Of a stretch of 34,432 nt of DNA, positions 32,120 through 34,432 are shown piece after piece; the stretch's first letter is position 1, and each line of letters opens with the position of its first letter. The notes beneath the pieces are model-generated. The model saw only the letters and a list, made by a program, of their open reading frames with translations. It ran no database searches and was not told where the DNA came from. The translations under genes were made by a program, and so were the position numbers. Source of the stretch: Thermohalobacteraceae bacterium (GTDB taxonomy: Bacteria; Bacillota; Clostridia; Tissierellales; VENL01); assembly GCA_030625765.1 (NCBI GenBank), contig DAOUQG010000005.1, forward strand, positions 1 to 34,432, read 5' to 3'.

Positions 32120-33181
32120 TTGAATATGAGTGAATTAGATTTAATATTTAATAAATTAAAAAACATTATAAATACTGAAATAAATTTGATAGATCAATCT
32201 GGGTATATTTTACAAAGTACTAATAGTGAGAAGATAGGTGGTTATGATTCACAGTTATGTGATATTAAGCTTGAAAATGAAATAGTAGAAAAAGGTAATT
32301 ATTTATATTTTTGTTTTTATGAATATAAAAGGAAGGTTATTGTATCGATAAAAATATTAGATAAAATAACAAAGAAAATTGGAGAAGTAATAAGGTTTTT
32401 TTTAACAATTAATTTTGATAATATGTCTAAGGATGGGTATATTAAGCATTTGCTATTAGGAAAGATTGATAATCATGAGATTGAAAGCTTAAATGAAAAT
32501 TTCGATGTAGATTTTAATAATCAAATACAGGTCGTAGTAATAAAAGTAAATAAAGATATATCAGATGATGTTGAAAATTTATTACTTCATTTTTATCCTG
32601 ATGAGTTATTTGTAAAGGTTAATAACTCATGTTTCGCATTTATTAAGAGTTTAAAAGACGATTGTAAAGAATACGAACTAAGTATTTTTGAAGTTATTTC
32701 TTCTGAATTATTCTATGAGCCAAAGATTGGAGTAGGAACAATTGTAGATAATATCAAGGACTTGGCAATTTCCTATAAAAAAGCTAATATGGCTATTGAA
32801 ATAGGGAATGTATTAGATAACCAAAGATATATTTTTTATTATAAAAATTTAGGTTTAGCACTATTAATAAATAACATGAATTCAAATGATTTAGAACAAT
32901 TAAATAAGGACTTGAATTATAATATCGAAGAAGTAGTTTCAGATAAAGAACTGTTAAGTACTGCTACGATATTTTTAGAAAATAATTTGAACATCAGTGA
33001 AACTGCAAAGAGGTTATATATTCACAGAAATACATTGGTTTATAGATTAAACAAAATTCAAAGACTAACTGGTTATAACTTAGGCAAATTTGAAGATTCA
33101 ATAAACTTTAAAATTGCATTAGATATCAATAAGCTTTTTGAGTCAATTTATAATAAAATCAATTATACTATTGACAGCTAG
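32120..33181 (+). CDS. PucR/CdaR-family transcriptional regulator
   Basis: A 353-residue regulator. The C-terminal 60 residues form the PucR-type helix-turn-helix: TATIFLENNLNISETAKRLY, HRNTLVYRLNKIQRLTG, and then DSINFKIALDI. The middle part (PKIGVGTIVDNIKDLAISYK and KANMAIEIG) resembles the GGDEF-like domain of CdaR/PucR proteins. The first 100 residues may sense a ligand. TTG at 32120, 5 bases after TAGGTGAG, is taken as the start; ATG at 32126 is the alternative. Its place directly after the sugar ATPase gene suggests a role in sugar uptake control, but no target site is proven. Confidence 0.82.
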   Translation: MNMSELDLIFNKLKNIINTEINLIDQSGYILQSTNSEKIGGYDSQLCDIKLENEIVEKGNYLYFCFYEYKRKVIVSIKILDKITKKIGEVIRFFLTINFDNMSKDGYIKHLLLGKIDNHEIESLNENFDVDFNNQIQVVVIKVNKDISDDVENLLLHFYPDELFVKVNNSCFAFIKSLKDDCKEYELSIFEVISSELFYEPKIGVGTIVDNIKDLAISYKKANMAIEIGNVLDNQRYIFYYKNLGLALLINNMNSNDLEQLNKDLNYNIEEVVSDKELLSTATIFLENNLNISETAKRLYIHRNTLVYRLNKIQRLTGYNLGKFEDSINFKIALDINKLFESIYNKINYTIDS

Positions 33182-33199
33182 AAAGATAATATATATAAT
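33171..33199 (+). promoter_or_regulatory. Consensus promoter of the T-box/aspS unit
   Basis: A perfect TTGACA (33171-33176) and a perfect TATAAT (33194-33199) have a 17-base spacer. The -35 lies inside the last codons of the PucR-type gene. The start point near 33206 precedes the T-box leader. Confidence 0.88.
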
Positions 33200-33430
33200 A
33201 AACGAAAATACAATAATACTTAAATATTATGAAGGGAAAAGTAGATGTTAGAAATCTCTCAGCGAGTCAGGGAAGGTGGAAGCCTGATAGTAGAATAACA
33301 TTGAAAGACATCCCAGAATAGATTATCTGAGAATCTGTAGTTAGGATTATTAGGATAATACGGTTTTCCCCGTTACAGGAACTGAGTGAACTATTTTTAA
33401 TAGTTAATGAGAATGGCACCGTGGGTATTA

Positions 33431-33461
33431 ATCTCACTTCTTAATCGAAGTGGGATTTTTT
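33431..33461 (+). terminator. T-box terminator 1
   Basis: A 10-bp stem (33431-33440 with 33447-33456, one G-U pair) is followed by six T. Its 5' arm overlaps the first antiterminator. Confidence 0.88.
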
Positions 33462-33553
33462 ATTTTTATCGCTAAAAATAGAGCTAGTGCACACTCTATT
33501 TATATTCTTATTTACTATTGCTTATAGTTAAAAAGGGTGGTACCACGGTTTTT

Positions 33554-33584
33554 AATCGTCTCTTTAATTAGAGATGATTTTTTT
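33554..33584 (+). terminator. T-box terminator 2
   Basis: A 10-bp stem (33554-33563 with 33570-33579, one G-U pair) with a TTAATT loop is followed by seven T. Its 5' arm overlaps the second antiterminator. Confidence 0.88.
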
Positions 33585-33589
33585 ATTTT

Positions 33590-33601
33590 AAGGACGTCCT
33601 T
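33590..33601 (+). other. Perfect 12-bp palindrome between T-box and aspS
   Basis: AAGGACGTCCTT lies just after the second terminator and 25 bases before the ribosome site. Its role is unknown. Confidence 0.3.
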
Positions 33602-33639
33602 CTAAGTTTACAAAAAATAATTTGTAGGAGGTATTTGAT

Positions 33640-34432
33640 ATGAAAAGGTATTTAATAAATGAGTTGGCTAATAACATTAATAATATGGTAATGGTTAAAG
33701 GATGGGTATATAGAATAAGAGAACTAGGTAAAATTGCTTTTATACTAGTTAGAGACAGAAGTGGGATAATACAATGTATAGTAAATACTAAAGAAATAAA
33801 TATAAAAGGGTTAAAGCTTGAAAGTGTTATAGAACTCTCAGGGATATTAGTTGAGAATAAATCATGTAAAAATGGTATTGAGATACAGGTATCAAATTTG
33901 AAAGTCATTTCATCAGTTAAAGAAGATTTACCTATAGAAATCAACAAAGAAGAAATGGAAGCTAGTCTAGATGTAGTTCTAAATAACAGAGTAATAAGTC
34001 TTAGGCATCCAAAGGTTAATGCAGTTTTTAAGATACAAGCTACGCTTGCTCAAGCTTTTTCTAGTTTTTTAACAAAAGAAGGCTTCACTGAAATCTTTAC
34101 TCCAAAGATAGTTGCTGAGGGAACAGAGGGAGGAACTGAATTATTTAAGGTAAAGTATTTTGACAGAGAAGCATATCTTGCTCAAAGTCCTCAGTTTTAT
34201 AAGCAGATGATGGTAGGAGCAGGTTATGAAAGAGTTTTTGAGATAGGACATGTATATAGAGCTGAAAGTCATGATACCAAGAGGCATATAAATGAATTTA
34301 TTAGCTTAGACTTGGAGATGGGATTTATAGATAATGAATATGAAATAATGGAACTTGAAACAAAAATGCTAAAATATATGTTTGAATACGTAGGTGAAAA
34401 ATGTCATAAAGAGCTTGAGACTCTTAAGGTGC
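33640..34432 (+). CDS. aspS: Aspartyl-tRNA synthetase, AspS2/archaeal type (3' truncated by the window)
   Basis: Charges tRNA-Asp, and possibly tRNA-Asn, with aspartate. About 264 residues are present. The N-terminal OB-fold anticodon-binding domain reads [20 protein letters not shown], then [11 protein letters not shown]. The class II catalytic core follows with [40 protein letters not shown] and [15 protein letters not shown]. The direct path from the OB-fold to this core is typical of the short archaeal-type enzyme, also found in Clostridia. That form is often non-discriminating and works with GatCAB amidotransferase to make Asn-tRNA. An asparaginyl-tRNA synthetase is less likely. AGGAGG lies 8 bases before the ATG. 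It is controlled by the T-box leader. Confidence 0.88.

Follow-up and report, generated by a model that had tools for sequence, protein, structure and literature searches.

The window, by which we mean the whole stretch of 34,432 nucleotides analyzed here, closes with the gene for a nondiscriminating aspartyl-tRNA synthetase of the archaeal type (aspartate--tRNA(Asn) ligase, NF003483; 33640-34431), which starts at 33640 and continues past the contig end. The gene is preceded, on the same forward strand, by a T-box leader with a sigma-70-type promoter just upstream (33171-33199; TTGACA-17-TATAAT, 12/12 match). The sole copy of stem I, the putative tRNA-Asp sensor, occupies positions 33227-33319 (identified with Rfam and a stem-I covariance model), and the specifier codon, read from the respective column in an alignment of 59 stem I matches, is GAC (Asp; 33307-33309), this column being GAC in the D-clade of leaders and AAC in its sister clade. 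Further downstream are the purine motif GAGUG (33384-33388), which precedes the only copy of the stem III 5' strand (AACUAU, 33389-33394), and a first unit consisting of the stem III 3' strand AUAGUU (33400-33405), antiterminator 1 (33410-33441, with the bulge UGGCACC at 33414-33420 and an A-U pair adjoining the bulge) and terminator 1 with its T run (33430-33466; hairpin 33430-33457). The second unit contains another 3' strand AUAGUU (33524-33529), which is complementary to 33389-33394, followed by antiterminator 2 (33534-33563; bulge UGGUACC, 33538-33544) and terminator 2 with its T run (33554-33589; hairpin 33554-33579). Judged from its sequence, the leader is a semi-tandem, that is, partially duplicated, T-box riboswitch with one stem I and two antiterminator/terminator units.

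Both terminators were delineated with a terminator scan, which found four terminator-like sites compared to 0.1 in shuffles; the two lie on the sense strand, each 3' of its T-box motif and each with a T run, and the two hairpins bear out the overlap of each motif with its own terminator that the original prediction had described. The motif positions given there, 33414 and 33534, fared unequally: the former is indeed the start of bulge 1, but the latter marks the beginning of AGGGUGG, not of bulge 2. The short 7-bp hairpin proposed to lie between the units is present at 33477-33500 (AATAGAG/CTCTATT, arms 33477-33483 and 33494-33500, loop CUAGUGCACA); a hairpin with the palindromic GUGCAC loop occurs at this location in three leaders from two families (the window, L025 and L039), with variable flanking stem sequence. 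Given that the loop is retained in just these three of the compared leaders, the nearest relatives, a general functional role of the linker hairpin was rejected. An internal promoter producing a separate transcript of unit 2 was rejected as well, the best match (9/12) being at chance level, and a megablast search against E. coli genomes yielded no match. In the leader L040 (genome G133), an extra terminator-like hairpin (GGCTTCCT...AGGAGCC and a T run) that is not accompanied by a T-box is located between units 1 and 2.

A cmscan search of the window detected one full T-box (RF00230; 33220-33444) that takes in the first T-box motif and scores 131.4 bits, above the curated gathering cut-off of 93, and the search over 33180-33640 added just a partial match (33513-33563, 26.2 bits) to model positions 164-216, which correspond to stem III and the antiterminator. 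The stem-I covariance model built in this work also identified a single stem I in the leader (positions 1088-1180 of L024, equivalent to 33227-33319 of the window). A second stem I between the units was found neither with Rfam nor with the dedicated model, so that the single specifier stem and the doubled decision module of the original prediction stand. Other hallmarks of a T-box are in place, namely a GAC (Asp) specifier ahead of an aspartate--tRNA ligase gene, mutually exclusive antiterminators and terminators, as judged from their overlapping sequences in both units and from the covarying antiterminators, and a variable UGGN position, C in unit 1 and U in unit 2, that fits the G73 discriminator read in tRNA-Asp of the relative G133 (no tRNA-Asp was found in the window's own assembly, which is fragmented). 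With one stem I and more than one antiterminator/terminator unit, the leader falls among the partially tandem T-boxes and not among the fully tandem ones, in which each unit has its own stem I.

Homologues were drawn from the family, order and class of the window and from GTDB genomes, and their leaders were searched with two covariance models built here, one for the antiterminator (R1) and one for stem I (R2). Every leader with an R2 match has one stem I ahead of the gene and, by these models, one or two antiterminators. In the AspRS tree of 54 proteins, the leaders split into a GAC clade and an AAC (Asn) clade through a single specifier change. One stem I combined with two units is present in 30 of the 33 GAC leaders, from several families, compared to 3 of the 21 leaders in the AAC sister clade, these counts including a few near-duplicate rows such as L054 and L124; some leaders that were first scored as single by a simple pattern possess a second unit with a variant motif. 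Related leaders thereby preserve the first T-box and terminator alongside the second. The doubled state, which is retained where the synthetases are as little as about 50% identical, looks ancestral within the clostridial GAC clade, with one loss, in Clostridium polynesiense (L049). On this comparative evidence, the semi-tandem arrangement of the aspS leader is no local accident. A link between the Asp specifier and doubling was considered (Fisher p 1e-8) and rejected: since the specifier changed only once on the tree, there is a single evolutionary contrast, and no dependence is claimed. In addition, another full T-box was found just 3' of the synthetase gene in L039 (2878-3083; Rfam, 123 bits), and the antiterminator model also matches a corresponding unit in L038.

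Among 22 antiterminators from both units, 98.5% of the pair cells are standard and 33 double changes were counted, compared to 11 in shuffles (0/500 shuffles), part of this signal stemming from differences between the two units; compensatory changes are present in both antiterminators. Across the homologous leaders, most units show a hairpin with a T run directly after it, and in unit 2 of L039, L058, L060, L063 and L117, where a simple search found a weak terminator or none, the T run begins a few bases later. In the GAC leaders, the variable position of UGGN is invariably C or T, in the 29 bulges of unit 1 and the 29 of unit 2 alike, as required for pairing with G73 of tRNA-Asp. Accordingly, a different tRNA specificity of the two bulges was rejected, N being C or U in both units in no consistent order. 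Immediately 5' of UGG, 24 of the 29 first units of the GAC leaders have A and 27 of the 29 second units have G, compared to G in all 48 background T-boxes of these genomes and A in none; this difference implies that units 1 and 2 are not recent copies. In the window, the base in question in unit 1 (33413) makes the helix A1 pair beside the tRNA end A-U instead of G-C. A globally weaker antiterminator 1 was rejected, given that the predicted energies of antiterminators 1 and 2 do not differ.

Unit 2 retains the stem III 3' strand followed by AA, generally without a strong local 5' strand. When this 3' strand is paired with the 5' strand of unit 1, the native duplexes have a mean energy of -5.50 kcal/mol vs -3.85 kcal/mol in mismatched leaders (permutation p 5e-5), and this advantage persists in a set thinned to 17 lineages (p 5e-5); the local 5' partners available to unit 2 (-2.66 vs -3.40, p 0.998) are no better than those from foreign leaders. 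An ungapped six-pair test of the shared stem III, free of hand adjustment, gave standard pairs in 84.6% of the cells vs 68% after permutation, and a seven-pair version gave 79% in register vs 22-47% when slid. In a covariation alignment of the seven pairs, with 7 of the 28 rows adjusted manually (four moved by 1-4 bases and three added) and L045 left out, 87.2% of the cells are paired and 41 show double changes, compared to 16.6 in shuffled alignments (0/500 shuffles). When every other window within a leader was ranked alongside it, the shared strand came within the top 5% in 11 of the 32 leaders (median 10%). The pairing is long and almost perfect in L041, L044, L046, L051 and L061, in which the unit 1 pairing is poorer; in the compact leaders L058, L060, L063 and L117, terminator 1 almost touches unit 2, so a local stem III partner scarcely fits. 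In the window itself the shared helix has just six pairs and competes with a weak local hairpin (ACUAU/AUAGU; -2.6 for the local and -4.1 for the shared pairing). Copying between the two 3' strands is an inadequate source of the signal, since the 5' strand is often a better match for the unit 2 strand than for that of unit 1. The pairing pattern is most simply explained by successive pairing of the 5' strand, initially in unit 1 and subsequently in unit 2. Given that unit 2 seems to borrow its stem III 5' strand from unit 1, of the two readings originally offered the one with a single tRNA-bound stem I acting on both terminators is now the better supported, and the other, an independently acting second unit, is disfavored.

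Structural work has placed stem III, along with its flanking motif (RRRxG-stem III-AA), in the domain sensing the tRNA end; stem III and the flanking purine motif have been reported to be indispensable for tRNA-end binding, and the antiterminator by itself shows no appreciable tRNA binding (PMC7583486). It is from this requirement for stem III in tRNA-end sensing that we infer a hand-over between the units. The resulting model, in which one tRNA serves two gates in series and the shared stem III 5' strand is handed over from one to the other, has in our estimate a probability of roughly 60%. The single stem I, the two conserved units and the covariation of the shared stem III come from sequence and comparison, and the order of events in the hand-over, the reliance on a single tRNA molecule and any effect on leakage are proposed on that basis. 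Under this scenario, stem I with its GAC specifier would bind tRNA-Asp, and two intrinsic terminators in series would each be countered by their own antiterminator, whose UGGN bulge would base-pair with the tRNA 3' end (G73-CCA). Both units would draw on the same stem III 5' strand and purine motif. As unit 1 emerges, the 5' strand would pair with the unit 1 3' strand and uncharged tRNA would stabilize antiterminator 1. Once the polymerase is beyond terminator 1, the terminator 1 hairpin could form harmlessly, and the 5' strand would then switch to the 3' strand of unit 2 to re-form stem III, so that the same bound tRNA could be offered to bulge 2. Expression would ensue only when the tRNA passes both checks, and therefore less leakage and a steeper response to uncharged tRNA-Asp would be expected. 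The antiterminator-tRNA complexes of known T-boxes are very stable, and for that reason release of the tRNA from unit 1 has to be assumed. A more novel proposition is that the leader proofreads its tRNA in two steps, the stem III 5' strand and purine motif being passed between the antiterminators during transcription and one tRNA being tested twice for aminoacylation; here, we consider the odds to be about even. The shared, covarying strand makes the service of one bound tRNA to two gates a concrete, mutable prediction, for which about 30 natural leaders are available.

Three other explanations of the second unit have to be weighed against the shared-strand evidence. Unit 2 could be a T-box devoid of stem I that catches the 3' end of a second, separate uncharged G73 tRNA, so that two tRNAs would be used as in full tandem T-boxes. 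Bulge 2 is compatible with G73 in all leaders, and the weak local stem III of the window would also suit this possibility, but neither a specifier nor a second stem I lies close to unit 2, which in most leaders is also without a strong local stem III and shows covariation with the upstream strand, all of which makes such a second tRNA unlikely. Slightly less probable still is the scenario under which unit 2 is the only strongly tRNA-responsive gate and unit 1 is a basal attenuator with a leaky terminator. The A before UGG in the first units, at odds with the 48 background T-boxes, speaks for it; however, the UGGN of unit 1 suits G73, its antiterminator covaries and its stem III is retained, and the full Rfam match takes in this unit along with stem I. 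That unit 2 is a decaying relic of duplication, with a regulatory role limited to the second terminator, is very improbable given its retention in 30 leaders over the range of synthetase divergence noted above and the compensatory changes in antiterminator 2 and the shared stem III, even though the argC leader of the same genome carries a recent-looking unit duplication.

This argC leader (L007, 1501-1905; G000 contig C114) is itself semi-tandem, with one stem I (AGA, Arg) and two near-identical units 173 nt apart, and a further semi-tandem leader precedes trpE (L020, 1390-1763, minus strand; G000 contig C5), with one stem I (UGG, Trp) and two UGGC units 111 nt apart. Given that unit 2 of the argC leader has a good local stem III and that local and shared pairing are both weak in the trpE leader, these data do not establish the shared strand as a general feature of semi-tandem T-boxes.

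The aspS leader resembles the canonical transcriptional T-box (RF00230) in its stem I with specifier, stem III, UGGN bulge, competition of antiterminator and terminator, and synthetase gene 3' of the leader, and differs from it in the second antiterminator/terminator unit and in a stem III whose sole 5' strand has a choice of two 3' partners. It shares with the partially tandem T-boxes the doubled decision units behind one sensor; a T-box class with a duplicated terminator-antiterminator was reportedly described by Vitreschak et al. in 2008. Partially tandem T-boxes are already on record, a point of which the original prediction was unaware, and a 2020 review gives their mode of action as unknown (PMC7583486). 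In the fully tandem T-boxes (trp, ilv/leu and thrS operons), two serial terminators likewise amount to an AND of uncharged-tRNA signals (PMC12452182), but there each unit has its own stem I and hence two tRNAs are needed, whereas here there is one stem I; thrS is the sole synthetase gene named as tandem-regulated in a 2025 survey of contiguous riboswitches (PMC12452182). In the limited collection of literature searched, we found no description of a shared stem III in T-boxes or of the conservation of a semi-tandem T-box in the nondiscriminating AspRS clade. The use of a T-box to regulate genes of tRNA-dependent Asn formation has a parallel in the transamidation operon of Clostridium acetobutylicum, the two-codon T-box of which, according to the work attributed to Saad et al. 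(2013), reportedly uses one stem I and overlapping codons for two tRNAs, whereas in the present leader one specifier feeds two gates. The partial tandem layout is known, then, and what is new, as predicted from the compared leaders, is the covariation of the unit 2 stem III 3' strand with the single 5' strand of unit 1; a half-helix used in turn by both gates suggests a route by which a single tRNA could be checked twice.
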